Positions 14,864 through 28,313 of a stretch of 43,160 nucleotides of DNA are shown piece after piece (position 1 is the first letter of the stretch; each line of letters begins with the position of its first letter). The DNA comes from a virus, in the IMG/VR virus record IMGVR_UViG_3300010885_006510, positions 1-43,160 of that record; one strand, given 5' to 3'. Under the pieces are notes generated by a model, which worked only from the letters and a program-made list of their open reading frames with translations, was not told the origin of the DNA and did not search any database. A program made the translations under genes and the position numbers.

Positions 14864-15087
14864 AGTTCAGCTATTTTAGCTGATCTAATAGCTTTTAATG
14901 AAACATCTAACGCTTCTAGCTTACCTTTTAAGTCAGCTATTTGCATCATTTGTTCTACAGCAAGTTTAAAACCATCAAAACTGATAGCTCTAATTTCTGT
15001 GTTAAGTCCTGGGATTGTTACTGTTACTTTTTCATAGAGCTCAAGAATTTGAGCCTCTTCGTCTGAAGTGATGTTTTTTTCTGTCAT
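14860..15087 (-). CDS. Hypothetical coiled-coil-like protein, 75 aa
   Basis: A small acidic protein, with an N-terminal helix (SDEEAQILELYEKVTV) and a C-terminal helix with Leu spacing (MMQIADLKGKLEALDVSL). It is coupled to the DnaB gene by an ATGA overlap. It might be a helicase partner, but no family is recognised. Confidence 0.68.
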   Translation of the reverse strand: MTEKNITSDEEAQILELYEKVTVTIPGLNTEIRAISFDGFKLAVEQMMQIADLKGKLEALDVSLKAIRSAKIAEL

Positions 15088-15137
15088 TGTATTTATGTGT
15101 TTTGTATTGTAAATATACTACTTTTCCTAAAAATAAA

Positions 15138-15746
15138 CTAACTATCTTGTAAATCTTTTAAAATATTTGGATTGTCAATTAATAGTTGACAATGGTCAGC
15201 TAATTTAGAAGCTACTTCTTTTGTACGAGGATCTGTTTTTCTAATAAAATAACTACTGGTAACCATATAGTTATAATCATCTAAACTCTTTAAATACACA
15301 TAATATTCTGTGGCGTCTAGTATAAGATCCCAACTATAATTTGGATATGCTTTTCTAAATTTTACAAATTTATCTTTTATTTCATCTATACCTTGTCTAG
15401 CAAGTTCTTTTGATGTAGGTATTCTTCCTCCATTTAACTTAGTAGAGTCTGGAAATATGTTTAAATACTCTTTTACTTTAGCTAAGAAATCTTTACCTAA
15501 AACTTCAGTGGTTACTTTAGTTTTAGTCTTTGTTTGAAATGTTTTGAACTCTTCAAGAGCTTGTAAACCTATTGGTGTAAGTTTTCCGCTCATGTCTATA
15601 ACTCCCATTTTCTGACACAGTAGTAATTCTGCATCTTCATTAATCAGCGTCCCCGGCATTATGCTGCTGTTGTAACAATCCAGCAAAAACATTTGGTTCG
15701 GGGTCAAGCTGTACTTTCTGCACGTAGTCCATAATTGAAGGCTCAT
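15138..15746 (-). CDS. Winged-helix-like phage protein, 202 aa
   Basis: The N-terminal segment SLTPNQMFLLDCYNSS followed by a Leu-rich helix and LTPIGLQALEEF resembles a winged-helix DNA-binding domain. The rest is helical (YYVYLKSLDDYNYM, AYPNYSWDLILDATE). The ATG at 15744-15746 gives a 107-nt overlap with the DnaA-like gene in another frame; a later ATG at 15657-15659 would cut the overlap to 20 nt but would lose the LTPNQ segment. I favour the long form. Probably a replication or regulatory factor. Confidence 0.65.
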   Translation of the reverse strand: MSLQLWTTCRKYSLTPNQMFLLDCYNSSIMPGTLINEDAELLLCQKMGVIDMSGKLTPIGLQALEEFKTFQTKTKTKVTTEVLGKDFLAKVKEYLNIFPDSTKLNGGRIPTSKELARQGIDEIKDKFVKFRKAYPNYSWDLILDATEYYVYLKSLDDYNYMVTSSYFIRKTDPRTKEVASKLADHCQLLIDNPNILKDLQDS

Positions 15747-16176
15747 GATTATCTTTTATATATTTAACGATGGTTGCATATTTAGCACGAAACTCATAGC
15801 TTGTTTCGTATAAGTCATTGAAAACGTTTACATTATGGATTACAGTGGTGTGATCTCTGTTTCCTATTGTCTGACCTATTATTTTAAGACCATATTTCAT
15901 ACCTCTTGCTATGTAGCAGTAGATATGTCTTAATTCTACTATTTCTCTATATCTGTGTTTGCATTCTAGTTTAAGCTTTATGTTATGTCTTTCTGGTAGA
16001 AACTTATCAAACATAGTTTTTAGCTTTTCTAGTGTCATTATCGGCTTATATTCACCGCTAGATGTCTGTATTTCCGTAATAATGATTGGGTAATAACCTA
16101 ATTTTTCATAAAATGTCTGCCTGAACTCAGAAACTAGTTTTTCTTGTAGTGCGTAGGCGTACTCTTTGTTTTCCAT
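15640..16176 (-). CDS. DnaA domain IV-like replication initiator
   Basis: 178 residues. The segment RHIYCYIARGMKYGLKIIGQ followed by IGNRDHTTVIHNV (104-116) matches the DNA-binding helix-turn-helix of bacterial DnaA (signature GxRDHTTVxHA). There is no AAA+ domain, so it is not an ATPase: it is likely a sequence-specific binder that marks the origin or regulates. It is the first gene of the leftward replication block and its 3' end overlaps the next gene by 107 nt. A TACATTTG -7 element lies 24 nt upstream. Confidence 0.85.
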   Translation of the reverse strand: MENKEYAYALQEKLVSEFRQTFYEKLGYYPIIITEIQTSSGEYKPIMTLEKLKTMFDKFLPERHNIKLKLECKHRYREIVELRHIYCYIARGMKYGLKIIGQTIGNRDHTTVIHNVNVFNDLYETSYEFRAKYATIVKYIKDNHEPSIMDYVQKVQLDPEPNVFAGLLQQQHNAGDAD

Positions 16177-16200
16177 AACTTAATTTTGAGGTTTTATGCA

Positions 16201-16208
16201 CAAATGTA
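16201..16208 (-). promoter_or_regulatory. Candidate -7 promoter element TACATTTG for the leftward replication block
   Basis: Matches TAnnTTTG on the minus strand, in the divergent gap 16177-16295, 24 nt from the DnaA-like ATG. No clear -33 TTTG at 19 nt. The same gap has the dyad ATGTAG/CTACAT around 16241-16266 and the palindrome TTTATATATAAA at 16273-16284, possible control sites for both directions. Confidence 0.4.
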
Positions 16209-16295
16209 GATAATCTGACTGATATTTTGTATATTATAATGTAGGGATTATAGAAATTCTACATATTCTAAGTTTATATATAAATCGTTTATAAC

Positions 16296-16565
16296 ATGGT
16301 AACTAAAAAGTTTTATGCCCAAAAGGATTATTTAGGATATCCTATTCCGGGTACAATGCAAAGTATCTCTGCTGAACAACCAGTTCCAGTAGATACTATT
16401 GAGATTCCAGCTGCTGATACTATTACAAGTCCTCAAAACATTCGTGAGAATAGTATGAGATATTTTGTACGTAAAGACAGAAATGGTAAAATCATTGCTA
16501 ACTCATTGATTGCTAGCTTAAAAAAGCCTGCTGGTCTAGTTTATGAGTTTCAACCTACTAAATAA
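16296..16565 (+). CDS. Hypothetical protein, 89 aa
   Basis: The first gene of the rightward block. It is soluble, with Pro/Thr-rich strands and an internal segment RYFVRKDRNGKIIANS that looks beta-hairpin-like. The ATG at 16296 follows an AT-rich gap with palindromes. It resembles short crAss-like proteins near lysis or virion genes, but I cannot assign a role. Confidence 0.7.
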   Translation: MVTKKFYAQKDYLGYPIPGTMQSISAEQPVPVDTIEIPAADTITSPQNIRENSMRYFVRKDRNGKIIANSLIASLKKPAGLVYEFQPTK

Positions 16566-16574
16566 GGTAATGCA

Positions 16575-16883
16575 ATGACTCCTAGAGAAAACCCGTCTAT
16601 AGCAGCTTTTAAAGTGTGGGTGTTTCCTACACTAGTATCTTTAGTTAGTTTACTCATATGGAATGATGTAAACGAAATAAAATCTGATGTAAAGTTATTA
16701 ATGGCTCAGTCTAATATAGACAAGACCAGGATTGATAATTTAGAGCGTCAGATGTTTAAAACTGCAAGTGTTCCAGAAGAACCTACTAAACAACTTATTG
16801 ATTTTCAACAAGTTCTAGCTGTTCTGCCTGATAACAAAACGTTAAAAGGTAAATATTATAAAACAATTAAGTATGACTTTTAA
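16575..16883 (+). CDS. Small membrane protein with coiled coil, 102 aa
   Basis: One transmembrane helix (about residues 12-29, AFKVWVFPTLVSLVSLLIW) is followed by a coiled-coil-like stretch (IKSDVKLLMAQSNIDKTRID) and a polar tail. The shape, an N-terminal anchor plus coiled coil, is common in phage lysis clusters (holin or spanin-like). It overlaps the next gene by 11 nt. Confidence 0.7.
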   Translation: MTPRENPSIAAFKVWVFPTLVSLVSLLIWNDVNEIKSDVKLLMAQSNIDKTRIDNLERQMFKTASVPEEPTKQLIDFQQVLAVLPDNKTLKGKYYKTIKYDF

Positions 16884-17115
16884 ACAATGGGTTTTAGATC
16901 TTTTCAAAGATGAGCGTGGAACCACATCCATTAAACCTGTTGTAGGTTTTATGTGTGCACTGTTTCTATGTGTTACATTAACTGCTAATAGCTTTTCTCA
17001 TGGTGATATTAAACCTTCAGATGCTTTAGTAGAGTCAGTAATGTACATCTGCATAGCAGCATTAATTGGTGACACTGGAGATAAGTTCTCATTTAAAAAG
17101 AAAGTAGATGAATAA
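16873..17115 (+). CDS. Two-helix membrane protein, possible holin
   Basis: 80 residues with two hydrophobic segments (about 24-40 VVGFMCALFLCVTLTAN and 56-70 SVMYICIAALIGDTG) and a basic tail FSFKKKVDE. The size, two helices and the charged C-terminus fit a class II holin, and the GH19 endolysin lies 800 nt downstream. The call is from topology and context only. Confidence 0.5.
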   Translation: MTFKQWVLDLFKDERGTTSIKPVVGFMCALFLCVTLTANSFSHGDIKPSDALVESVMYICIAALIGDTGDKFSFKKKVDE

Positions 17116-17734
17116 AATATATTTTTTCATTATAGGTGTACTAGTAGTCTTTGTTCTTTTACAGAATAAAGGTTGTATAGGTGGAGCTAGTCATCAAGGG
17201 TCTGATACTCTTGTAGTACATGATACTACTTGGTCAGTTCATGATAGCTTAATCTTTGCTAAACCTAAGCCGGCTAAGATTATACATGATAGCTTATTTA
17301 TAGAAGGTAAAACTGAATATCTAGCTGATACTAATTATGCAGCTCTAAAGATACAGTTTGATAATCTTGTTAAAAGTTATACAGCATTAGCTATATACAT
17401 TGACAGTGTAAAGCTAGATACACTAGGTTATGTTTCAGTTACAGATTCTGTAAGAGAAAATAAAATTATAGGTAGATCCTGGCAGTATAATTATAAGATA
17501 CCGTTTGTTACTAAAACAGTTACGGTTACTAATTATGCTAAACCAAAGAATCAGTTATACGTAGGTGGTGGTGTTAATACAACACAAACATTAGGATTAC
17601 ATTCTGCAGAAGCAGGATTAATATTAAAAACTAAATCAGACAAGATCTATGGTTTAAAAGCCGGATCTGATGTCAATGGTAATATATCTTATGGTTTCCA
17701 GACATACTGGAAGATTGGTAAAAAAACAAAATAA
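17108..17734 (+). CDS. Membrane-anchored periplasmic protein, spanin-like
   Basis: The N-terminal hydrophobic helix (about 5-20) precedes a Cys at 23; the lipobox is imperfect, so it may be a signal anchor. The periplasmic region has repeated HDT/HDS-type strands (VVHDTTWSVHDSLIF) and a C-terminal beta-rich domain ending GFQTYWKIGKKTK. Proteins with this layout occur beside endolysins in Bacteroidota phages, some annotated DUF6808, with a possible inner/outer membrane spanning role in lysis. 208 residues. Confidence 0.55.
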   Translation: MNKIYFFIIGVLVVFVLLQNKGCIGGASHQGSDTLVVHDTTWSVHDSLIFAKPKPAKIIHDSLFIEGKTEYLADTNYAALKIQFDNLVKSYTALAIYIDSVKLDTLGYVSVTDSVRENKIIGRSWQYNYKIPFVTKTVTVTNYAKPKNQLYVGGGVNTTQTLGLHSAEAGLILKTKSDKIYGLKAGSDVNGNISYGFQTYWKIGKKTK

Positions 17735-17735
17735 T

Positions 17736-17879
17736 ATGAAAAAGATTATTGAATTAGTTAAGAAGTTATTATTTGGTAGCAAGGTTGAGAAAGCAGTAGC
17801 TGCAGCTCAAGTTGCTAACGAAGTTAAGAAAACATCAGTAAAGATTAAGTCTGGTACTGCTAGTAAGAAGAAGAAGTAA
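17736..17879 (+). CDS. 47-aa Lys/Ala-rich small protein
   Basis: The ATG at 17736, 1 nt after the upstream stop, gives a frame beginning MKKIIELVKKLLFG and ending with a Lys-rich tail. It looks like an amphipathic helix with basic ends, suggestive of a membrane or nucleic acid binding peptide in the lysis region. An upstream in-frame ATG (17670) would overlap the previous gene and is unlikely. Confidence 0.6.
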   Translation: MKKIIELVKKLLFGSKVEKAVAAAQVANEVKKTSVKIKSGTASKKKK

Positions 17880-17895
17880 TAAACACACTATACAT

Positions 17896-18495
17896 ATGAA
17901 TTTAGAAAAGCTTAGGGGGCATGTTCCGGATACTGTAATTGCACAGATCCCGGCTGTCATAGATACGTTTGGTGTAAATACGTCTTTACGTCTTGCACAT
18001 TTTTTAGCACAGTGTGGTCATGAATCTGGTGGATTCAGACTTACTCAAGAAAACCTTAACTACTCAGCTAAAGGTCTTATGGGTATTTTTAAGAAATACT
18101 TTCCTACTCAAGCATTAGCTGATGCTTACGCTCGTAAACCAGAAAAGATTGCTAACCGTGTATACGGTGGTAGAATGGGTAATGGATTAGAAGCTTCAGG
18201 TGAAGGTTATAAATTCCGTGGAAGAGGTTATATTCAGTTAACTGGTAAACAAAACTACACTGCATTTGATCTAGCCGTAGAAGATGATATTCTTGCTAAT
18301 CCAGACTTAGTTTCTTCTAAGCATGCGTTAGCTTCTGCAGCATGGTTCTGGAAAAAGAATGGTTTAAATCTAATTGCAGATACAGGATCTAGTTCTGAAG
18401 TAGTAACTAAAATAACTAAAAGAGTTAATGGCGGTACTATAGGTTTACCTGATCGTATCAAACACTTTCAAGAATATCATGCATTACTTGCATAA
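17896..18495 (+). CDS. GH19-type endolysin (chitinase/lysozyme fold)
   Basis: 199 residues covering the glycoside hydrolase 19 catalytic domain. The general acid is E43 in CGHESGGF, and the second Glu is E103 in GEGYKFRGRGYIQLTG, the family signature block; FWKKNGLN and RVNGG complete the fold. In phages this family cleaves peptidoglycan glycan strands for lysis. There is no signal peptide, so export would need the holin-like gene upstream. Located with small membrane proteins in one rightward operon. Confidence 0.92.
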   Translation: MNLEKLRGHVPDTVIAQIPAVIDTFGVNTSLRLAHFLAQCGHESGGFRLTQENLNYSAKGLMGIFKKYFPTQALADAYARKPEKIANRVYGGRMGNGLEASGEGYKFRGRGYIQLTGKQNYTAFDLAVEDDILANPDLVSSKHALASAAWFWKKNGLNLIADTGSSSEVVTKITKRVNGGTIGLPDRIKHFQEYHALLA

Positions 18496-18507
18496 AACCA
18501 ACAAATA

Positions 18508-18633
18508 ATGGCTAAAACTAAAGTTGGTGACTCAAGAAAAGTCACTTTTGGAAAAAGAAAAGGTGGACGTTTACGTAAAAGTAATGGTCCTAAAGCTAAA
18601 AAAGTTAGTAAATATAGAGGGCAGGGTAGATAA
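18508..18633 (+). CDS. 41-aa basic Lys/Arg-rich protein
   Basis: Starts MAKTKVGDSRKVTFGKRK and ends SKYRGQGR; nearly half the residues are Lys/Arg or Gly. I recall very similar short basic proteins next to endolysin or virion genes in crAss-like phages. Basic charge suggests nucleic acid or virion binding. 12 nt after the endolysin stop. Confidence 0.65.
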   Translation: MAKTKVGDSRKVTFGKRKGGRLRKSNGPKAKKVSKYRGQGR

Positions 18634-18666
18634 TACTACTAAGCTCTCTAATAAATATATAGAGAT

Positions 18667-19311
18667 ATGAGAGCACTCGTTATTAATTACAGCCAAAAGT
18701 TATTTGACCTAATAGGTAAAGCTTTTTTAGTCTTTGTAGGACTATGGCTAGCATTTGCATTAACCTTTGAGGGTTATATGGTGTACCTGCACTTTTCAGG
18801 ACAAGTAGAAAAGACTATGGCCATTTCTAACTGGTTTAGTTGGACATTTGATGGAACCTTTAAAGACAGTCCAGGTAATATTTGGTATGAAGAACCTAAA
18901 AAGATAGATATATCATCTGTAACTAATAAAGTTGTTGTAGGTTCTTTAGCTGGTAATCGTAATCTAGAGTTTGGTCTAAAGAATATATTAGAAGAAGTAG
19001 TTCAAGAAAAAGAATATGAACTAGATAAAGCTTCTAATTTAAAAATTACAGCAGAAATTATATATCTAGATGTATTAAAAACACAATCTAGTTTTTCAGT
19101 ATTACATAATAATAAAGAGTCAGTTGTTATTAGACTTAGAGGATACCTATACAAAGATGGTAAACTTGAGAAGAAAGTAACTGTTGAGGAATCTGCTGAT
19201 GAGGTAAGTATGTCCGCTCTTCTTGTAGATGAGGGAGGTAAGTTTAACCAACAAAATTTAAGTTCAGCTCTAAAGAAAGCTTCTGTTTCATTGGTAAATA
19301 AACTATTATAA
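18667..19311 (+). CDS. Membrane-anchored CsgG-like protein
   Basis: An N-terminal helix (about 15-42) precedes a segment with VVGSLAGNRNLEFGLKN, then a beta-alpha-rich domain that resembles the CsgG/curli-secretion lipoprotein family in its pattern of LKITAEIIYLDVLK and VVIRLRGYLYKDGKL strands and a final amphipathic helix. No lipobox Cys is present, so it is likely anchored by the helix. It overlaps the next gene by 1 nt (ATGA-like), implying coupling. The CsgG link is by eye and moderate. Confidence 0.45.
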   Translation: MRALVINYSQKLFDLIGKAFLVFVGLWLAFALTFEGYMVYLHFSGQVEKTMAISNWFSWTFDGTFKDSPGNIWYEEPKKIDISSVTNKVVVGSLAGNRNLEFGLKNILEEVVQEKEYELDKASNLKITAEIIYLDVLKTQSSFSVLHNNKESVVIRLRGYLYKDGKLEKKVTVEESADEVSMSALLVDEGGKFNQQNLSSALKKASVSLVNKLL

Positions 19312-21443
19312 TGAGAAAATTTATTACGACATTTTTTACGACACTTTTAGTACTTATTGCGACATTTTCGTATAGTCAACAAAAGTTCAAAGCTGCTACT
19401 TATGTAGGTGGGTCTTCTCTTAATAGAGGAGACGTTTTTGATTATGTGATTTATGGTAATGGTATGAACAATGCCACTACTCGTCAGTTATTATTTGATG
19501 TACAATATGACAGAGATGTTTTTGAGTTAGTATCTGTTAATCACACAGGTACAGGTGGAAACGGTGGTATTTTACCTCAGAACTCTACTATTAACCTTTC
19601 TTATTATAACTATCCTGGTTATAATTTTATTCCTGTAGCAACAGGTAATGCAGCTAATACTACTACTAATGGTACTACTAACTATCAATACGCTAATTAT
19701 AACTATGGTACAACTAATCCATATGCTATTTTAAGAACTACGCTTACTTGGTCTACTACATCAGCTATGCCTTATAGTGGTTATAGTGATTTTATTAAGA
19801 TTAAGTTTAGACTTAAAGCTGCTTCCACTGCATACACTTTTAATCCTATTAAGTTAAACTTTGTTGCTGGATGGAACGGATCTGGTCAATATGATAATAC
19901 TACAATGGAAAATCCATTATCTACAGCAGTTATCATGAACCAAAACTATGGTAAGTATGTAACAGCTAAAGTAGATTTAAATACTAACTTGTATAGCATA
20001 TCTAATGTAAAAGTATCATTTAGAGATACTCTTACTAATACAGGAGTGATGTTCCCTGTTACGTCTACAGGTGAAGTTGATATCAATCAAGCTTCTTTAT
20101 CTGCTGATAAAGTGTATGAGGTTACTGTAATGCATGAGTTAGATAAATTGTATACTATGTATAGTAATGCAATCACTATATCTGATTTTACTACAGCTCA
20201 AGGTGAATTTACATCTATGGGACTGGACGGATCTAACGGTCAGAGTATTAAAACTGGACAGTCATTATACGCTGCAGATATTAATCGTAGTAGAACAATA
20301 GATGGTGGTGATCTTCCTAAACTTCTTGCACAAGTGGCGGGTTTAGATACGCTAATGATGTTACCTAGTACTTACACTTCAGGTAGCGGTGGTTATATGA
20401 GTCTTCCTACATGGAAAGCATCTGATGTTACAACTATTGCAGGTCAAGCAGAATGGGGATATGTAACTCCTGGTTCTACATCAAGTACATTACGTATTGA
20501 TATGAGAGAATTTCCTAGTAGTTCAGTAGCTAGCACTGTTAAAAGTGTTCAGTTATTTGATATATACACTGGACCAGTTGAATATGTATCTAATGATGGT
20601 ACTTGGGCCCAATACACTGTACCTTCAACACTTATTAAAGCTAAAGACGGTACTTCGTTATATGTAAGTTCTATACGTGATATTAATGGTCAAGGTGTGG
20701 ATTATGCTTTAAAAGCAGAATTTGAATTTGATGTAGATGTTAACCATTCATGGGGGACCATCACTGCAGCTAACTGGAAGAATATTACTTATCCTAAGAC
20801 TTATTTTAAAACAGGTACTCTTGGTACTAATGCCTTCTTAGACCTTAAATATCTTTTATGGGGTGATGTAAACAGATCTCACTCTTCGCAGGTAGTTACA
20901 AGCTCTGCAGGTACAGCAACTGTACAAACAAATGCTGTAAATAGCTTAGCTACTAACTCAGCATTTAAAACTATGTCTATACAAGCACAGTCTACAGGAA
21001 CTTCAATGAATTCTACGGCTGATATTAGTTATATTGATGTAAACTTAAATAACTTAACAGTTACTTCTAATACAATTGAGATTCCAGTAAATATAGATGC
21101 TAAAACTTCTAGTGTTTCTGGTTTACAGTTTGAATTTACATTTGATCCAGCTAAAATAAAATTTGAAGAGCTTACAAGTAATGTACCAAACACTTGGTAT
21201 GTATTTGCTAGTTCTAAAGATGGACGTGTAAAGTTTGGAGGTTTAGATAAGAATAACTCTGAGTTTATTAAAGGAACTAACACTCCATTTAAACTTAAGT
21301 TTAGCACAATTGGTGAAGGTGTAAACATTGTTACATCTGTAAAAGTTTCACCTCTTATGGATGCTGCAGATTCTAAAGGAAATCAGTTAGGAATAAATCT
21401 TAACTCTACACAAATTAAGTTAACCGGTTATAACAATTTTTAA
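19311..21443 (+). CDS. Secreted cohesin/dockerin-like protein, 710 aa
   Basis: A clear signal peptide (1-22, cut before Q23, ending FSYSQ) marks export. The N-terminal part (about 38-190) has a cohesin-like jelly roll (RGDVFDYVIYGNG, LLFDVQYDRDVFELV). A dockerin-like calcium loop and helix lie at 321-344 (ADINRSRTIDGGDLPKLLAQ), with a degenerate second loop at 518-526 (GDVNRSHSS). A second cohesin-like domain occupies 574-685 (VPVNID type strands, LQFEFTFDPAKIKFEEL). Such pairs hold extracellular complexes by calcium-dependent docking. In a phage it might build a virion-associated or host-surface assembly. The longest gene in the window. Confidence 0.72.
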   Translation: MRKFITTFFTTLLVLIATFSYSQQKFKAATYVGGSSLNRGDVFDYVIYGNGMNNATTRQLLFDVQYDRDVFELVSVNHTGTGGNGGILPQNSTINLSYYNYPGYNFIPVATGNAANTTTNGTTNYQYANYNYGTTNPYAILRTTLTWSTTSAMPYSGYSDFIKIKFRLKAASTAYTFNPIKLNFVAGWNGSGQYDNTTMENPLSTAVIMNQNYGKYVTAKVDLNTNLYSISNVKVSFRDTLTNTGVMFPVTSTGEVDINQASLSADKVYEVTVMHELDKLYTMYSNAITISDFTTAQGEFTSMGLDGSNGQSIKTGQSLYAADINRSRTIDGGDLPKLLAQVAGLDTLMMLPSTYTSGSGGYMSLPTWKASDVTTIAGQAEWGYVTPGSTSSTLRIDMREFPSSSVASTVKSVQLFDIYTGPVEYVSNDGTWAQYTVPSTLIKAKDGTSLYVSSIRDINGQGVDYALKAEFEFDVDVNHSWGTITAANWKNITYPKTYFKTGTLGTNAFLDLKYLLWGDVNRSHSSQVVTSSAGTATVQTNAVNSLATNSAFKTMSIQAQSTGTSMNSTADISYIDVNLNNLTVTSNTIEIPVNIDAKTSSVSGLQFEFTFDPAKIKFEELTSNVPNTWYVFASSKDGRVKFGGLDKNNSEFIKGTNTPFKLKFSTIGEGVNIVTSVKVSPLMDAADSKGNQLGINLNSTQIKLTGYNNF

Positions 21444-21444
21444 A

Positions 21445-21822
21445 ATGAAAGAAACTAGTAAACTATTAGTGGTATATCTTCTTATTATAGTGACAGTCAT
21501 TTTATATGCTTGTACTAAAATAGATATCCCAGCTCCAGAACCTATTAATTTAGGTGTTAAATCCGAGTCTACGGCTATCAAGTCTATCACTCAAGTGGGT
21601 AACAGCATTACAGCTGAGTTTGAGACAACAGTTGGAGCTAAATATTCTGTACAGATTGTACCATTTGGTAAAGAAGACCCAGTTAAGAAAGAGGGTTTTA
21701 CTGCTACAGAAGAATTAACTAAAAAAGTATATGATCTATCTGGCTTGACTAAGCAAGATTATGATCTTATCTTTATAGATATAAAAGGTAAAGAAGTTAA
21801 ACATCCAATAATTATAAAATAA
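21445..21822 (+). CDS. Lipoprotein, 125 aa
   Basis: Signal peptide with lipobox LYAC (C23), then a charged, beta-rich mature domain (SITAEFETTVGAKYSVQIVP). Lacking an Asp right after the Cys, it could be retained in or sorted to the outer membrane; Bacteroidota rules differ from those of Escherichia coli. It begins 1 nt after the cohesin/dockerin gene stop, so the two are likely made together. No domain family recognised. Confidence 0.75.
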   Translation: MKETSKLLVVYLLIIVTVILYACTKIDIPAPEPINLGVKSESTAIKSITQVGNSITAEFETTVGAKYSVQIVPFGKEDPVKKEGFTATEELTKKVYDLSGLTKQDYDLIFIDIKGKEVKHPIIIK

Positions 21823-21828
21823 CATATT

Positions 21829-22131
21829 ATGTCAGAAGAAAAAGAAGAGTCAACCGGCTCAAGTTTAAAAAAAACAATATTAGGTACTATAGCTACAGTT
21901 GTAACAGCTGGTGGGGCATGGTTAGGTTCAACCTTATTTGGTGGAGGAGAAGATAAAGCAGCTGCTCCAGCTCCTGCTCCAGTTATTAACATCACTAACT
22001 CTAATCAGCAGTCTCAAGCTGCTGGAGGTAAAACTGTTATTATTAATCAGAAAGCTGCAGATCCTAAACCTGTGGCTCCTGTTAAAAAGAAAGAAGGTGA
22101 TGAGTTTAAAGAAGAAGCTCCAAAGTGGTAA
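21829..22131 (+). CDS. Small protein with Gly/Ala helix and Ala/Pro linker
   Basis: The N-terminus is polar and acidic, then a glycine-alanine helix (LGTIATVVTAGGAWLGSTLF, about 17-36) that may insert in a membrane, followed by an Ala/Pro linker and a beta segment VINITNSNQQ and a charged tail. 100 residues. It may be a phage structural or membrane-associated protein. The gene packing (6 nt from the upstream stop) is operon-like. Confidence 0.65.
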   Translation: MSEEKEESTGSSLKKTILGTIATVVTAGGAWLGSTLFGGGEDKAAAPAPAPVINITNSNQQSQAAGGKTVIINQKAADPKPVAPVKKKEGDEFKEEAPKW

Positions 22132-22148
22132 TCAATTAATATAAATAT

Positions 22149-22766
22149 ATGCAAAACAACACAGAATCTGGTGGATTTAAACAACTGTTAGGAGAAATGA
22201 TGCAAAGACGCTGGTTTATTACAGCGTTAGTATTAGGTTCTTTTATGCTTATTATAGCAGGTATTTTTACTGCTATTACATACGGTACTGCTATTGCAGG
22301 AGAATGGAAAGAGTTATTATTATTGTTACTAGGAGCTTTTATTGGCTCTTATGGTAAAATTATTGATTATTGGTTCTCTGATACAGATAAAGATAAAATG
22401 TTAGTACAGAAAATGGATGAAGAAGATGGTGTAACTCTATCTCATACAAACGATATGAAAGAGTCTCCTAAAGATCATACACCTTTAGTAGATCCTGCAT
22501 TTTTAGCTGCTGCTGATAGAGCTAATGCTCAATCACAAGCTTCTAAAGCTGAAGTTAAAGCAGAACAACCAATTGCTGTACCAGTTAAGAAAGGTGTAGA
22601 AATTGATGAAGACGGTGACGGTACAATGGACGGTCTAGACTTTGATGGTGATGGTAAGATTGATGAATATTTTGCACATCGTCAGTGTGAACACGTTTGG
22701 GGTGACGCTGATGGAGACGGTGAATTAGAATGTCTTAAGTGTGGCAAGATAAAAGATATTGTTTAA
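22149..22766 (+). CDS. Membrane protein with calcium-loop and zinc-ribbon motifs
   Basis: Two transmembrane helices (about 22-45 and 54-72) come first, then SYGKIIDYWFSDTDKD and a charged linker. The C-terminus has tandem Asp-rich calcium-like loops (IDEDGDGTMDGLDFDGDG) and a second loop DADGDGELECLKCG overlapping a C-x-H...CxxC zinc site (CEHVWG, CLKCG). Known phage proteins with the first half resemble holin or anchor proteins. Calcium loops fit the dockerin-like gene upstream. Function not known. Confidence 0.62.
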   Translation: MQNNTESGGFKQLLGEMMQRRWFITALVLGSFMLIIAGIFTAITYGTAIAGEWKELLLLLLGAFIGSYGKIIDYWFSDTDKDKMLVQKMDEEDGVTLSHTNDMKESPKDHTPLVDPAFLAAADRANAQSQASKAEVKAEQPIAVPVKKGVEIDEDGDGTMDGLDFDGDGKIDEYFAHRQCEHVWGDADGDGELECLKCGKIKDIV

Positions 22767-22790
22767 CTTAATTAACTCCCATGGATCCTG

Positions 22791-23012
22791 ATGAACAAAA
22801 GAAACAGACTACGGAGCGTGAATTCTCTCAAAGATATCAGCTTAATGCTGGCAATGTTCTTCCTACCTTTAGGATACGATCTTTTATTCAAGACTCTCTT
22901 AAATATTACTGGGAGCTTCTGGGCTACAGATATCATATTCTACTGCTTGTCAGGGGTCTTTTGGCTGCTATATTGGTTACTTACCAAATACTCTACTAAA
23001 TTAAAAACATGA
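22791..23012 (+). CDS. Two-helix membrane protein, 73 aa
   Basis: MNKRNRLRSVNSLKD is followed by two hydrophobic helices around LMLAMFFLPLGYDLL and DIIFYCLSGVFWLLYWLL. The pattern FFLPLGYDxLFK..TGSxWxTDxIFY occurs in small crAss-like phage membrane proteins as I remember it. A second frame starting at 22781 overlaps; I prefer this one because of the membrane pattern and the ATGA overlap with the next gene (23009). Confidence 0.65.
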   Translation: MNKRNRLRSVNSLKDISLMLAMFFLPLGYDLLFKTLLNITGSFWATDIIFYCLSGVFWLLYWLLTKYSTKLKT

Positions 23013-23740
23013 TTAATAAATATTTTGTTTGGTTTGTGTTTCTATCCAGTATGCTCTTAATAGGGCATACTGGTTTTTCACAAATAGCTAAGACTACCAC
23101 TGAGAATTATAAAGCTAGTTTTGAAAAAGCTATAGACATTAGTCAGTTTATGGATTATGAAGGTGTGCAAATACCTATACAAATTCTTAAGTGTGGTATA
23201 TCAGATGAGATGTACGAACAATACCCTGAGCTTAAAGAAAAGCGTGTAGGTCTTGGCGTAGCTAACATATCTATGGAATATTTAGAGAACCTTAATAGGT
23301 TCAAGTTTACTGAGGATAAAACAGAGATTAAAAACCGTATGGTGAAGCAGTTTCAAGCTTCCGCTGCCGGGATATCTGAGAATAAACTAGATGGTCGTGG
23401 TAAGATTAATCTAGCTAAGTACTTTGTTACTATAGAATGCTATGATTACTCTATATCAGAAGACGAATCTGTGTATATAAAGGGGGATACAAAACAGTTG
23501 ATGGTTACTCGTATCGGTTTGCAAGTGAGATTCACTGACGCTGAAACGGGTACCATTATATCTGGTTCTGGATTGGGTGAAGCTAAAAGTACTAAAGAAA
23601 CATCAGGATTATCTGACGCTAGTTTAGACCCTGTAAAATTTAATCAATCTACTATTTCTATTGCTACGAAAAAAGCTCTAGATATAGCATGTGCTCGTAT
23701 TTTAGATAGAATGGTGAAGAAAGCAATCTTCACTAAATGA
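23009..23740 (+). CDS. Exported CsgG-like protein, 243 aa
   Basis: Signal peptide 1-25 ending TGFSQ, then a domain with the CsgG-family order: a strand block INLAKYFVTIECYDYS (about 126-141), VTRIGLQVRFTDAETGTI (164-181) and a terminal helix ATKKALDIACARILDRM. CsgG forms the outer-membrane pore for curli secretion and related proteins are widespread in Bacteroidota. There is no lipobox Cys, so this one would be periplasmic or secreted. It overlaps the next gene by 4 nt. The fold call is by eye. Confidence 0.55.
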   Translation: MINKYFVWFVFLSSMLLIGHTGFSQIAKTTTENYKASFEKAIDISQFMDYEGVQIPIQILKCGISDEMYEQYPELKEKRVGLGVANISMEYLENLNRFKFTEDKTEIKNRMVKQFQASAAGISENKLDGRGKINLAKYFVTIECYDYSISEDESVYIKGDTKQLMVTRIGLQVRFTDAETGTIISGSGLGEAKSTKETSGLSDASLDPVKFNQSTISIATKKALDIACARILDRMVKKAIFTK

Positions 23741-25083
23741 TGAAACGGTTTATATTTTTACTATTTTTAGTAGTAATCCTACCATTTTATGGATACTCTC
23801 AAACTCTTGTACAGACATTTGTTGACCCTTGTACAAAAGTGGTCTCTACGTTTGTTATCCCTATCACTGGTAGTACTGTTATTGTTTTTTACAATAAGTC
23901 TAGAGTCTTTACGTCTGCTGATGTTAGGAGCGGGGCTTTTAATAGTTGGCTCAATCAAGTTTATGAAGATTATAGAAAGTTATCTCCCTGTTCTGTTGCT
24001 CAAGCTACAGCTACTAGTACTCAGATTACAGCCAGTGCTGTTTCTGCTGCAGTAAGTGCTGCAGCCTCTGCGGCTGCTTCTACGGCAGCTTCTTCTGCTG
24101 CGGCTAGTGCAGCTTCATCAGCAGCAAGTTCAGCCGCCTCATCAGCTTCTAGTAGTGCTGCTTCATCTGCAAGTTCTTCTGCGTCTTCCTCAGCTAGTAG
24201 CTCTGCTTCTAGTTCAAGCAATTCTCAAGGATCGAGCTCAGAGTCTAGCAGTAGTAGCTCTAGCGGGGAAAGTTCTTCTTCATCATCAGATTCTAAATCA
24301 GAGTCTTCATCAAGTAGCTCAGAATCTAAGTCTGAGTCTAAATCTGAATCAAAAAGTTCATCATCTAAATCTGGGGGATCTAAATCTAAAGCTGCCGCTA
24401 AGGGACCTGCTAAAGTAAATCCTATATTATTTAACTCTGACTTTACTGGTGGGCAAAGTCTAGATAATAGTTTCAGTATTATTATGACCGGTGGGATATC
24501 ACAGTCTTCTATGACTGGACAATCTTCCTGGGGAGTAACCGGTATGGTGTGGAGCAATCTACAACAGTTTGCTATTAGTTCTAGATATACTTTAATGCAT
24601 TTTGATGAAGGTAAACTCCAAGGTATATCTAACTTTGGTTTTACAGCAGCTTATGCTTTCGGTACAAAGTTTGGTTTTGGTACATATGCTTACATAAAAC
24701 CATTAGGAAAATGGGGTGTAACTGGTGTCAATTACACTTTGAGTTTTGCTGAAGCAGCGTACCAGCCGGACCCAATGATAGATGCATCTAGTCAAATTAG
24801 TTTAACTAGTTCTATTTTATTATTCTACACTAAACCATTTACACTAAGTAAACGGTTATCTATATCTCCTGATATATATTTATCAGGTAGTCCTTTAATA
24901 TATCTTACTAAAGAAGGTAGTTTTACTGAGTCTTCAGATATGGGTATACTTACAGGTTTTGGTTTTGATTACTCTTTTACTAAGAGATTTAAGTTAAACA
25001 TAGGACTCAAGACTAGTATTTCTACTAATCCCGAGGTTCCCATGTTATATTTTGCTGTTATAGGATCTAAGATTAACCTATAA
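23737..25083 (+). CDS. Exported protein with Ser/Ala linker and C-terminal beta-barrel
   Basis: Signal peptide 1-21 (ending YGYSQ), a small N-terminal domain with Cys13-like hydrophobic region through about residue 85, a 130-residue Ser/Ala low-complexity linker (about 90-220) that turns to Ser/Glu/Lys, then a C-terminal barrel-like domain (about 228-448) of amphipathic strands ending in YFAVIGSKINL. Last residue Leu preceded by alternating hydrophobics fits an outer-membrane beta-barrel insertion signal. Reading frame is unbroken. It overlaps the CsgG-like gene upstream by 4 nt and its stop overlaps the convergent gene by 11 nt. Confidence 0.7.
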   Translation: MMKRFIFLLFLVVILPFYGYSQTLVQTFVDPCTKVVSTFVIPITGSTVIVFYNKSRVFTSADVRSGAFNSWLNQVYEDYRKLSPCSVAQATATSTQITASAVSAAVSAAASAAASTAASSAAASAASSAASSAASSASSSAASSASSSASSSASSSASSSSNSQGSSSESSSSSSSGESSSSSSDSKSESSSSSSESKSESKSESKSSSSKSGGSKSKAAAKGPAKVNPILFNSDFTGGQSLDNSFSIIMTGGISQSSMTGQSSWGVTGMVWSNLQQFAISSRYTLMHFDEGKLQGISNFGFTAAYAFGTKFGFGTYAYIKPLGKWGVTGVNYTLSFAEAAYQPDPMIDASSQISLTSSILLFYTKPFTLSKRLSISPDIYLSGSPLIYLTKEGSFTESSDMGILTGFGFDYSFTKRFKLNIGLKTSISTNPEVPMLYFAVIGSKINL

Positions 25084-26590
25084 CTTCACCTTTTTTATCT
25101 ACTTTATAGATTTTACTACCATCAAAGACTACTGCTTGACCTGCATCAGAGTATTGTTGCATAACTGATTCATTAAAGTAATCAAATCTAGCACCGTTAA
25201 TACCTATAAAGAAAGCTTTGTCGGAATATATACGACATCTGTCTTCAGCATCTGTCACTACTAATGCATTAGTACTATGTTGATTGATATGTTCAACCAC
25301 ATTGTTTATGCACGTACCGCCTGATGTACCTAAAGCAGCTATTGTAAATATATCTGTTTTTAAACTTCTTACACGATCATTAAATACGTAGATTTTATTT
25401 AACAAATCTAGTTCTTGTAACTTAAGTGCAAAAGCTTTACAGAAATCTAGCTTATCTATATTATTTCCATCTTTATCTTTTACTCCACAGTTACCAGACA
25501 TTGATCCTGAAATGTCTATGTATATATCAATCTTACCTATAGCTTTAGTGTCTTTAATAATGATATCTTCTATCATTACTTTTCTAAGCTTTGGATGTAA
25601 GAATACATAATCATCTAACGCTGATATATTATCAGAATTAAATAAGTCTTCATATATAGTCTCTTTTTTAGCACTAAAGTATGACGTGGATTTGTCCATA
25701 AGTTTTTTAATCTTTTCTTTTAATGAACCTAAAGAGAGATTAATACGTCTAATGTCTTCAGCCACCTGTTTTAGATACTCAGGTCCTATTTTAGAAGCTC
25801 CACCGCCATCTTTTATGTTTTCAAACAAGCTATCTTGTATATCTTTAGGCATACTTTCATCCAAAGATTTACATGTTTCTGTTGCATCTTTTACAGCATC
25901 ATCTAACATATTTTTAGATAGTTTATTATCAAGCATGTCTTTCATTAATTTATCTAAGTCTTCATTATCAAACTCAGAACTACCATTAAGACCATTCATT
26001 ATTTGTTTTGCTGCATCTGGATCTACATATTCCATCATAGTTAGCTGCATAGCAAAATATCTCATTAAGTTTCTTGCAAAAATTGAAGACTTAAGATTAC
26101 TTGTTTCTGTCATAATTTTAGAAACAGGATTGTTAGCTCTTTCTAAAAATTTGTACTGACCGTAATTTTTATCTGTACGCTCTTCAAAGTCTAGTCTATC
26201 CATTTTATGATAGAACATCTTAAAGATGTCATTCTTAAGATGTTTAGGAAACTTATTATAAGTTTCTATTAATTTCTCAGAAAATGCACGGAAATCAGGC
26301 TTTCTATCGTCAGATATTTTATTAAAACTAGCACTTCTTTGAAATTTATTATAGTCGGTATTAACTCCTTGTGGATCATTAATATGAGCTCTTACTATTG
26401 AGCTAAGTTTATCTTCATCTATATAATGCATGTGAGGTTTGATAAGATCTCCTTTTTTATAGAAGTTAAGCTTACCAAATAATCCTTCTGTATCTTTATA
26501 GTGAGATTGTATCTCTCCTTTCTTTACTTTTTCTAGGATGGTATAAACATTCTTATACTGCTTTCCTGTACTGAGACTTTTCAGTGCCAT
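25073..26590 (-). CDS. VWA-domain protein, partner of a MoxR-type ATPase
   Basis: 505 residues. The first 330 are helical and charged with no recognised motif. A von Willebrand factor A domain follows: MIDAS D359-x-S361-x-S363 (YIDISGSMSG), T422 or T426 in GTSGGT and D447 in VVTDAED. VWA proteins of this size paired with a MoxR AAA+ protein act as chaperone or insertase adaptors (RavA-ViaA, CbbQ-CbbO, NorQ-NorD). The MoxR-like gene lies just upstream and the two appear to be one system. Start ATG at 26588-26590. Confidence 0.85.
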   Translation of the reverse strand: MALKSLSTGKQYKNVYTILEKVKKGEIQSHYKDTEGLFGKLNFYKKGDLIKPHMHYIDEDKLSSIVRAHINDPQGVNTDYNKFQRSASFNKISDDRKPDFRAFSEKLIETYNKFPKHLKNDIFKMFYHKMDRLDFEERTDKNYGQYKFLERANNPVSKIMTETSNLKSSIFARNLMRYFAMQLTMMEYVDPDAAKQIMNGLNGSSEFDNEDLDKLMKDMLDNKLSKNMLDDAVKDATETCKSLDESMPKDIQDSLFENIKDGGGASKIGPEYLKQVAEDIRRINLSLGSLKEKIKKLMDKSTSYFSAKKETIYEDLFNSDNISALDDYVFLHPKLRKVMIEDIIIKDTKAIGKIDIYIDISGSMSGNCGVKDKDGNNIDKLDFCKAFALKLQELDLLNKIYVFNDRVRSLKTDIFTIAALGTSGGTCINNVVEHINQHSTNALVVTDAEDRCRIYSDKAFFIGINGARFDYFNESVMQQYSDAGQAVVFDGSKIYKVDKKGEVIG

Positions 26591-26616
26591 GTTAATTTAT
26601 TTTAAGGATTATAAAT

Positions 26617-26666
26617 TAAAAAAGCTCACCAGCAGATGAACAAAATAAGTCCATCTTGCTAGTGAG
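26617..26666 (-). terminator. Intrinsic terminator after the MoxR-like gene
   Basis: A long imperfect stem, CTCACTAGCAAGATG pairing with CATCTGCTGGTGAG on the minus strand, is followed by CTTTTTT. It lies between the MoxR-like stop (26735) and the VWA start (26590). A second small hairpin CCAATA/TATTGG sits at 26697-26713. Partial read-through would let the two genes be made in unequal amounts. Confidence 0.85.
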
Positions 26667-26734
26667 TTCATTGTATTTATATAAATTTGAATCTTTCCAA
26701 TAAAAGTTATTGGCTATCAATCTATAACCCTGTG

Positions 26735-27871
26735 TTAAAAAGCTTGAACAGAGGCTTGTTCTACTTCAGATTCAGACATCATAGCTTCAAAGTCTTCTGA
26801 ACCTTGGTTATCTACACGAGCAGGGTGATTCTGTAATATATACTGCATAGAAAGTTCTATTTCTTCTACTTGTCCTTCATCCATGATACCACGAGAAGTG
26901 TAAGTATTGATTAAGCTCTCTATTTCAGCAATAGCTAATTCTAACTGCTCATTAGAACTGTGAGAATGTAACATTTCCACTTTGCTCATAACAGCTTTAA
27001 CTTCTGGAGACATCAACTTGTTCTGTAATTCAGAACCTGCTGATTGTCCAATCATAATTTGTGCTGTTTTCACAAGTGCTTTATCTATACTAATGTCCCA
27101 GATGTATGATACCGCTTTAGTTAGACTAGGTACGAAAGTTAACGTACGATCTGAACTGTTTTGGTAACCCACCTCAAGATATTTTTCTAACTTATTAACT
27201 GGTACTTCTAAAGACTCTATTTCAGTTTTAGATGGTATACCAATTGTAAACTTTTCTTTGTAGTTACGGGCCCCTTTGTTAAAATACTTAACTAGTTCAC
27301 CTGCAGATACACGGTTAACAGTATGCTTTAACATAAATCTATCCCAGAAAGGAGATCCAATCTCATCTTTCGGTATTTCATTACATGTAGCAATGAATAA
27401 CTTCCACTTACATGGGATTTTGTGCTTACCGTTGAATAAGAACTTCTCGTTCATTACACCTAACATAGCATTACGTATAGCTGAAGATGCTTTGTCTACC
27501 TCATTAATGATAACAATCTCTGCTTCAGCAATTGGTGTATTAAGATCATAGATATTTTCAGTAAATAACTTACCTAAATCAGGCATACCTTTGATCTCTG
27601 ATGCTTTAGTACCTTCATCAGTCTCTAATATATAGATTTTATTAGCAAAGTCTTGTGCAGTCATATTACCATCTCTGTTTAACCAAGCTTTTGCATAATC
27701 CAATACTGTTTTAGTTTTAGCTACGCCAGGTGCACCTACTAATAAACAGGGTAAACCTGTAGATTCTGCTAGAGCTAGCATTTTAAATACTTCTTCTTTA
27801 TTGATTAATGATGTATCAATAGTTCTTACTTCCTGCGTAGACTTTTTTGTAATTGATTTTACTTTAGACAT
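26735..27871 (-). CDS. MoxR-like AAA+ ATPase
   Basis: I start at the ATG at 27869-27871 (MSKVKSITKKSTQEV) because longer frames overlap the upstream gene. 378 residues. Walker A GAPGVAKTKT (46-55), Walker B-like IINEVDKA (121-128, N123-E124 instead of D-E), sensor 1 IATCNEIPKDE and an arginine-finger-type block SPFWDRFMLKHTV. MoxR proteins remodel or load cofactors onto partner complexes with a VWA protein, here 25073-26590. The function of this pair in phages is not known to me. The last 60 residues are acidic. Confidence 0.86.
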   Translation of the reverse strand: MSKVKSITKKSTQEVRTIDTSLINKEEVFKMLALAESTGLPCLLVGAPGVAKTKTVLDYAKAWLNRDGNMTAQDFANKIYILETDEGTKASEIKGMPDLGKLFTENIYDLNTPIAEAEIVIINEVDKASSAIRNAMLGVMNEKFLFNGKHKIPCKWKLFIATCNEIPKDEIGSPFWDRFMLKHTVNRVSAGELVKYFNKGARNYKEKFTIGIPSKTEIESLEVPVNKLEKYLEVGYQNSSDRTLTFVPSLTKAVSYIWDISIDKALVKTAQIMIGQSAGSELQNKLMSPEVKAVMSKVEMLHSHSSNEQLELAIAEIESLINTYTSRGIMDEGQVEEIELSMQYILQNHPARVDNQGSEDFEAMMSESEVEQASVQAF

Positions 27872-27896
27872 TTTTAATGTATTTTTGGGTTGTGTG

Positions 27897-28313
27897 TTAA
27901 AGGTTTGCAAATGCTGCGAGGTCGGATTCTGCACCACTCTCTGCTGTGATTCTAATAGCAGTCTGGTTGTTACCTTGAGATATGACGCTTGTATCCGTAG
28001 ATCTTGTGTCCCCGATATTAGTCTTTGGTAAGCTTTCCAAATTGATCTCATCTCGTCTGACACTAGTGTCATTGGTGGTTGTTCCTGCATTATTATTATT
28101 TTTTGTATCATCAATTACAGTAAATACTGTAACTGTAGTTTCTGCATCCTTTAAAGCAGGATGTTTACGGATCATAGCGATCTGTTGCTCTTTTGCATTG
28201 TACTTATCTTGGATACTTCCATATCCTAAGTCGTCTTTCTTTAACCAGGTTAGACCATTGTCTAAATCCTCTAGAATTTGAGATACATAGATCTCTACTT
28301 TGTTGATTGCCAT
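27897..28313 (-). CDS. Hypothetical protein, 138 aa
   Basis: Helical N-terminal half (QILEDLDNGLTWLKKDDLGYG), then a Lys-rich segment and a long Asn/Thr/Ser-rich disordered tail (TKNNNNAGTTTNDTS). I recall similar proteins in crAss-like genomes without a known function. Followed by the MoxR-like gene 25 nt away. Confidence 0.72.
   Translation of the reverse strand: MAINKVEIYVSQILEDLDNGLTWLKKDDLGYGSIQDKYNAKEQQIAMIRKHPALKDAETTVTVFTVIDDTKNNNNAGTTTNDTSVRRDEINLESLPKTNIGDTRSTDTSVISQGNNQTAIRITAESGAESDLAAFANL

Follow-up and report, generated by a model that had tools for sequence, protein, structure and literature searches.

Phage-encoded CsgG/CsgF modules have been described in SAR11 and OM43 phages (PMC7029224, PMC9004378, PMC9599517) and phage-encoded cargo of the type IX secretion system (T9SS) in Cryophage (PMC7468147), and a crAss-BACON open reading frame (ORF) has a T9SS domain (PMC6949934); these statements follow the accessible portions of the papers cited. 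Here we analyze a run of eight genes, g1 to g8, on a stretch of viral DNA of 43,160 bases (the window), which is the entire IMG/VR virus record IMGVR_UViG_3300010885_006510. The first-pass annotation of this DNA had held that no described phage system has this combination of parts. This stands for the combination, of which no published description was found in a literature coverage thin on subscription papers, but not for the parts, as phage CsgG/CsgF modules and phage T9SS cargo are in print. We consider it fairly probable that the eight genes are an envelope cassette of Bacteroidota phages which places a cohesin/dockerin-type protein, often together with lectin partners, on the surface of the infected cell. 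The genes of the cassette, and the endolysin gene upstream of it, are the following:

g1, 18667-19311, plus strand: 214 amino acids, N-terminal membrane anchor and small periplasmic CsgG-like domain
g2, 19311-21443, plus strand: 710 amino acids, exported; cohesin at residues 588-680, dockerin-like loop at about residue 323, without a T9SS tail
g3, 21445-21822, plus strand: lipoprotein of 125 amino acids with a domain of about 80 residues resembling the T9SS tail that is fused to g2 elsewhere
g4, 21829-22131, plus strand: 100 amino acids; a single segment of weak hydrophobicity, a linker rich in Pro/Ala and Asn/Gln, and a conserved GDEFKEEAPKW at the C-terminus (alignment of 21 relatives)
g5, 22149-22766, plus strand: 205 amino acids, hydrophobic N-terminal half, DxDGDG calcium-type loops, HxxC...CxxC zinc-ribbon motif
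g6, 22791-23012, plus strand: small membrane protein of 73 amino acids, in near relatives only (1 of 45 clusters)
g7, 23009-23740, plus strand: 243 amino acids, exported, predicted CsgG fold; the slow-evolving marker of the cassette
g8, 23737-25083, plus strand: 448 amino acids; signal peptide, N-terminal domain (23-82), helix (85-134), linker and predicted barrel (230-447)
Endolysin of GH19 type, 17896-18495, plus strand: phrog_181 (6.5e-70), Pfam PF00182 (1.1e-9); upstream context, outside the cassette

Conservation and spread of the cassette

Relatives were collected by scanning viral contigs with g7 of the window (491 matching stretches), g7 of the Flavobacterium phage immuto (113) and g7 of a bacterial contig, L137 (246); further scans started from the g7 alignment and from g2. 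Each scan contributed its best 80 loci at most, i. e. the sample is the top-scoring part of the matches. Together with the immuto record and the one bacterial contig, these loci gave 170 distinct g7 proteins, which form 58 clusters at 92% identity; the 45 clusters with 6 kb on both sides were used for neighborhood counts. Family members near g7 were assigned by iterated hidden Markov models (HMMs). The alignments comprise 46 of the 58 clusters for g7, 57 of the 63 upstream g2-like proteins, 50 of 55 for g8 and 40 of 49 for g1, each with the window protein added; the set of exported proteins downstream of the cassette comprises 30 of 35 proteins, ten of which were picked by eye from 15 untyped ones.

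The cassette travels as a unit across these relatives. On the same strand as g7, g8 was found in all 45 clusters, g2 and g1 in 44 each, g4 in 42, g5 in 28 and g3 in 11. The identity of g7 between relatives tracks that of g1 (0.86), g8 (0.84), g2 (0.78), g4 (0.74) and g5 (0.72), and that of the endolysin at 0.34; all six correlations, including the last, exceed 200 of 200 label shuffles. The flanks of 52 loci have a median of 7% of their proteins in common and fall into 20 groups, the largest of 27 loci, and cassette-bearing contigs reach 434 kb. Median pairwise identity is 0.67 for g7, 0.64 for g5, 0.54 for g4, 0.44 for g2, 0.33 for g1 and 0.24 for g8.

In the cultured phage immuto a lectin, a cohesin protein with tail, g4, g7 (50% identity), g8 and g1 follow each other in this order. 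No g3, g5 or g6 was recognized there, and we found no paper describing its cassette as a system. The name Immutovirus goes back to Hoetzinger et al. 2021, as cited in the accessible text of PMC11500664. The bacterial genome collection yielded a single g7 match, and a search of 395 genomes from the phylum of this match returned the same genome only. The match is L137, a 254-kb contig of an uncultured Bacteroidetes metagenome-assembled genome with endolysin and tail-collar-like genes (the latter by eye) near the cassette; the contig is probably a phage and looks like a jumbo phage binned into the assembled genome. Among 50,697 phage records, neither a near DNA match to positions 15000-27000 of the window nor a tblastn match to g2 was found.

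Over its whole length the window matches part of a 131,294-base contig (the 131-kb relative) at 99.993% identity; the terminase, portal and major head genes of this contig all lie outside the matching stretch. A search with the terminase matched 138 phage records (uncultured 51, Bacteroides 30, Flavobacterium 29, Cellulophaga 9, and others) at about 25% identity in the matches listed. By these matches, the host of the window phage very probably belongs to the Bacteroidota. This fits with the phylum that bears T9SS, whose distribution is given in the accessible part of PMC7468147.

Export signals

The ORF calls bore out the eight consecutive plus-strand genes at 18667-25083. Overlaps of 1-4 nucleotides, initially said to join many of them, were confirmed for three of the seven junctions (g1/g2, g6/g7 and g7/g8), whereas the other four have gaps of 1-24 nucleotides. 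Signal peptides or anchors had been noted on most of the genes, and indeed a plain hydrophobicity scan, which is a heuristic and not SignalP, flags seven of the eight, all but g4. By the same scan the N-terminal signal is kept across the relatives (g2 80/83, g7 53/58, g8 57/62, g1 48/51, g3 16/16, g5 35/36); for comparison, it was flagged in 0/35 endolysins and in 90/440 untyped neighbors of at least 100 amino acids. In the 131-kb relative 16 proteins of at least 60 amino acids were flagged as exported or membrane-bound, ten of which are encoded in the cassette island and the lysis genes preceding it.

Cohesin, sorting tail and lectin cargo

The first reading of g2 as a cohesin- and dockerin-like protein was confirmed for the cohesin, which scores 31.1 bits against the Pfam cut-off of 24.1 (PF00963, E 3.1e-7, residues 588-680). 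The dockerin part did not hold as a full module: a pattern search finds one loop of F-hand type, DINRSRTIDGGDL, from about residue 323, and window g2 has neither a Pfam Dockerin_1 match nor the duplicated F-hand module of dockerin type I. No PDB sequence match was found for g2. Across 58 g2-like proteins Pfam (E<=0.01) identifies cohesin in 45 and Dockerin_1 in nine. A T9SS sorting tail is present in 40 of the 58 according to each of two libraries, with best scores of 1.6e-12 for TIGR04183 and 6.4e-14 for PF18962. When ten g2-like proteins were read closely, five, including the annotated cohesin protein of immuto, had the cohesin followed by a C-terminal tail, and the tail was at the C-terminus in all five proteins in which its position was read. 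From these tails it follows that the g2 homologs of the larger clade should be exported by the type IX secretion system of the host.

The remaining clade, to which the window belongs, has a lipoprotein instead. The tail on g2 without g3 was seen in 41 of 53 clusters, g3 without a tail on g2 in 12, and both or neither in none; g3 directly follows g2 (-1 to 2 nucleotides) in 11 of the 12 g3-bearing clusters. That g3 is a lipoprotein, as had been noticed at first sight, is borne out by its lipobox-type N-terminus (LYAC), with C23 invariant in 23 of 23 aligned rows, a call made by motif and not by LipoP. The profile of the g3 family matches the phage T9SS tails over 80 columns (95.9%, E 6.4e-9), while two other family pairs, used as controls, gave no match across a domain. 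In one of them the signal peptide by itself produced an E of 0.00073 (25.8%), the background against which the profile E-values are to be read. PF18962 is found in six of 23 members of the g3 family (E<=1, best 1e-5), and in one locus (L159) the tail HMM matched g3 itself.

Many loci encode one more exported protein downstream of g8. In the set of 30 such proteins, Lectin_C was found in 22, Laminin_G_3 in 11 and Dockerin_1 (E<=0.01) in five. Endonuclease_NS proteins with a signal-like N-terminus occur within the operon of one locus (L241, 13339-13923, 5.1e-21) and just upstream of the cassette in immuto (1.1e-25). No glycoside hydrolase was detected by Pfam in the eight cassette proteins of the window.

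Two side observations concern individual loci. DNA/RNA non-specific endonucleases with a signal-like N-terminus lie in or beside the cassette of L241 (13339-13923) and L127 (9935-10510). Exported-looking proteins of about 150 amino acids with a DVGDGWK motif adjoin g1 in L253 (14276-14728) and L246 (14355-14780); no convincing family match was found for them.

CsgG-fold proteins, outer membrane barrel and membrane partners

Both proteins that had been called CsgG-like retained this assignment, g7 by structure prediction and g1 by its match to the g7 profile (hhalign 97.9%, E 4.5e-13). In many relatives g1 is shorter and has a signal-peptide-like start in the alignment. The AlphaFold model of g7, built from the alignment of 47 rows, has a predicted local distance difference test (pLDDT) score of 76.6. 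Its closest solved fold is CsgG (4uv2, Foldseek E 2.8e-7; VIA Z 12.7 with 162 aligned residues and a root mean square deviation of 3.9), followed in VIA by Cj1090c (10.5), PelC (9.2) and LptE (8.7), and its best viral match is a phage protein named CsgG (E 4.9e-7). Neither the window protein nor any of 14 family members matched PF03783 at E<=1, and no PDB sequence match was found for g7, alone or as a profile.

Each subunit of CsgG contributes two membrane-spanning hairpins. In the monomer model of g7 there is one long hairpin (138-157/160-177), which has a conserved charged SEDE (150-153) near its tip, and at the site for a second hairpin the model has 13 low-confidence residues between the last strand and the final helix. 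Judged by its model, then, g7 is a CsgG-fold protein; because of the charged hairpin tip and a loop that is too short for a second hairpin, we do not claim a pore.

The early description of g8 as a beta-barrel protein with a Ser/Ala linker is upheld by the structure prediction, which gives a closed 12-strand barrel behind a disordered Ser/Ala-rich linker (pLDDT 72.3; barrel blocks mostly 76-92, one block 61). FapF is the top Foldseek match (5o65, E 3.5e-8); VIA lists NalP (Z 23.1) and FapF (Z 19.8), with KdgM among the nearest. Window g8 has no Pfam match, and 51 g8 proteins matched 19 Pfam families, none of them convincingly and none of them PorP/SprF. Thus g8 is predicted to be a 12-strand outer membrane barrel that a long, flexible linker connects with a small N-terminal domain.

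The calcium loops and the zinc ribbon initially ascribed to g5 recur in its relatives: HxxC...CxxC is invariant in 17 aligned rows, and the first calcium-type loops are present in 13 of the 17. The invariant residues in these relatives are H177, C180, H182, C195 and C198. By pattern, the zinc motif occurs in nine of nine proteins of the g3 clade versus two of 25 of the other clade. The conserved hydrophobic N-terminal half probably comprises two membrane helices. For g5 as a holin, an idea suggested by its motifs, no database support was found. g4 is a probable linker anchored in the inner membrane; it was also considered as a subunit of curli-like fibers, which was set aside in view of its hydrophobic segment and the lack of a clear signal peptide.

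Possible function of the cassette

The following course of events would account for these observations. The g2 homologs with a sorting tail would be carried outward by the type IX secretion system of the host. g4 and g5 in the inner membrane, g7 and g1 in the periplasm and g8 in the outer membrane may constitute a support that spans the envelope and holds or assembles the surface proteins. Outside the cell, cohesin and dockerin modules could bind one another, and the resulting glycan-binding coat may alter what attaches to the infected cell. An outer-envelope or virion-surface assembly had been proposed from the DNA; the first half of this proposal is retained, as cohesin, CsgG folds, lipoprotein and barrel make up an exported envelope module and the T9SS tails and lectins of the relatives point to the cell surface.

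Several findings weigh against this envelope cassette. Window g2 has no NCBIfam match and lacks the C-terminal T9SS sorting domain, so that its own outward route has to be deduced from its relatives. An HMM of the lectin domains had no match in the 138 ORFs called on the 131-kb relative. Window g3 itself matches no Pfam family, neither PF18962 nor DUF3244, and DUF3244 is found in three of the 23 family members with a best score of 2.8e-5, about equal to that of the T9SS tail. The exchange of tail and g3 maps to a single branch of the g7 tree (support 100/100) and thus represents one evolutionary event rather than independent repeated evidence. The Z score of g7 with CsgG (12.7) is just moderately above those of other folds (up to 10.5), and g4 was flagged as a signal or membrane protein in just six of 52 relatives. 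Finally, the cassette comes after the endolysin in the clade of the window. This suggests late expression, which is a poor fit to the masking of receptors. The nearness of lysis genes in many loci likewise points somewhat to late action.

As to the use of the coat, one tentative explanation is superinfection exclusion, in which lectins mask the glycan receptors of the cell against competing phages and the nucleases exported in some versions destroy incoming DNA. The signal-bearing endonucleases linked to the cassette in L241 and immuto would then be a possible guard against incoming phage DNA. The unequal change among the genes, with median identities from 0.67 for g7 to 0.24 for g8, also speaks for exclusion, although g1, by its looks no cargo gene, is fast-changing as well. 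The idea has been proposed for the T9SS cargo of Cryophage in the accessible text of PMC7468147. Yet the cassette of the window has neither lectin nor nuclease, and the proximity of the endolysin suggests late timing.

Somewhat more doubtful is a role in adhesion or aggregation, i. e. a lectin/cohesin coat that makes infected cells adhere to siblings, to algae or to particles, or keeps progeny together, by which progeny would meet new hosts. This use is favored by the frequency of Lectin_C (22/30) and LamG (11/30) in the downstream proteins and has a precedent in the "sibling capture" that the available part of PMC7029224 proposes for pelagiphage curli. Against it, an OM43 phage with CsgGF showed no clumping according to the available text of PMC9004378, though this is a different system.

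We regard it as improbable that the genes are a lysis or release module, in which membrane proteins, lipoprotein and barrel would act with the endolysin to break the outer membrane and replace spanins. The endolysin of the window immediately precedes the cassette on the same strand, and 24 of 45 clusters have a same-strand endolysin homolog at most ten ORFs away; g1 and g3 would superficially resemble a pair of inner and outer spanins. But across the loci the endolysin occurs on either side and on either strand, its divergence tracks the cassette weakly (0.34 versus 0.72-0.86, though above the shuffles), and in immuto about 27 kb separate the annotated chitinase and holin from the cassette. 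Lysis, moreover, does not require lectins, cohesin or T9SS tails.

Still less can be said for a curli-like type VIII secretion route, which had been among the first suggestions and in which g7 would be a CsgG pore exporting g2 or g4 as fiber subunits. The closest solved fold of g7 is CsgG, the top Foldseek match of g8 is the exporter of a functional amyloid, and g4 is partly Asn/Gln-rich. Against this, the two membrane hairpins of CsgG were not seen in the g7 model, which has no room for the second, autotransporter and porin barrels match g8 as well or better, and no CsgF, CsgE or curlin-repeat match was found by Pfam (E<=1) in the eight proteins of the window, though the kinship of g7 escaped Pfam too. 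That the proteins are virion or tail-fiber components, the other half of the original proposal, is very improbable despite weak PHROG tail-fiber matches (g7 E 0.057, g8 E 0.007) and the occurrence of lectin folds in phage tails, as the export signals are conserved across the relatives, the g8 barrel and the T9SS tails are characteristic of the envelope, and the 131-kb relative has its terminase, portal and major head genes in other places.

Returning to the cassette as a means of placing proteins on the infected cell, a bolder interpretation can be put forward tentatively: it could be a phage-specific trans-envelope organelle in Bacteroidota phages of diverse backgrounds up to jumbo size, which hijacks T9SS to cover the dying cell with a coat of cohesin, dockerin and lectin and exists in two anchoring forms, with the tail either joined to the scaffold or relocated to a separate lipoprotein. 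To our knowledge, phages rarely devote this much coding to exported proteins. Bacteroidota are major degraders of polymers in water and gut. The core is common to loci with 170 distinct g7 proteins in varied genomic settings, while the lectin, nuclease and scaffold cargo is exchanged; this implies a selected benefit at the surface of the Bacteroidota cell. Viral remodeling of the surface of infected cells has hardly been described so far, and whether phages reshape the exterior of the cells they infect in order to govern attachment or competitors is a testable question, for which a cultured phage carrying the cassette exists in immuto. The finding of a tail-like domain on a lipoprotein of its own is relevant to the working of T9SS tails, and the cassette is a potential source of new cohesin/dockerin and sorting-tail parts.

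Neighboring genes

In the window the cassette is preceded on the same strand by the endolysin and small membrane genes. Ahead of the endolysin, positions 16575-17879 encode proteins of 102, 80, 208 (with a membrane-type start) and 69 amino acids, perhaps holin and lysis accessories, for which no names were found. On the other side, the minus strand at 25073-28114 encodes a VWA-type protein and, next to it, an AAA+ ATPase (PHROG "ATPase", 1.8e-17). The MIDAS-like DIYIDISGSMSG of the VWA-type protein was recognized by eye, and PHROG gave a weak HNH match only (0.00039) for this protein. The MoxR/VWA-like pair is convergent to the cassette and adjoins it in many of the closest relatives. The 131-kb relative (L132-L135, 27-66 kb, reversed) further contains giant ORFs of 4512, 2048, 1719 and 1686 amino acids, of which the 1719-residue ORF, the one that was scanned, had no PHROG match.

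Comparison with known systems

With its 12-strand barrel and N-terminal helix g8 is like FapF, the exporter of the Pseudomonas functional amyloid, and like autotransporters, but sequence identity is about 6-11%, and g8 departs from them in its N-terminal domain and its long Ser/Ala linker. Cellulosomes are cohesin-dockerin scaffolds in which the modules reside on exported proteins; unlike these, the cassette has mostly single dockerin-like loops, and its relatives have lectins.

As in the curli (type VIII secretion system) modules known from pelagiphages and from the OM43 phage Melnitz, a phage encodes an exported surface module that contains a CsgG fold and whose role is unproven. Those modules consist of true CsgG and CsgF, in pelagiphages also of CsgA/B, as stated in the accessible text of PMC9599517. 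In the cassette, by contrast, no CsgF or curlin was recognized; it has cohesin, T9SS tails, lectins and a separate 12-strand barrel, and its carriers are Bacteroidota phages. With Cryophage the cassette shares type A T9SS tails, variable cargo and a proposed role at the surface or in superinfection, the Cryophage cargo being separate genes for an endoglucanase, GH39 and PA14 (both points from the accessible part of PMC7468147). Unlike Cryophage, the phages studied here have a fixed multi-gene cassette with CsgG-fold proteins, a barrel and membrane partners, and a second form in which a tail-like domain is carried by a lipoprotein.

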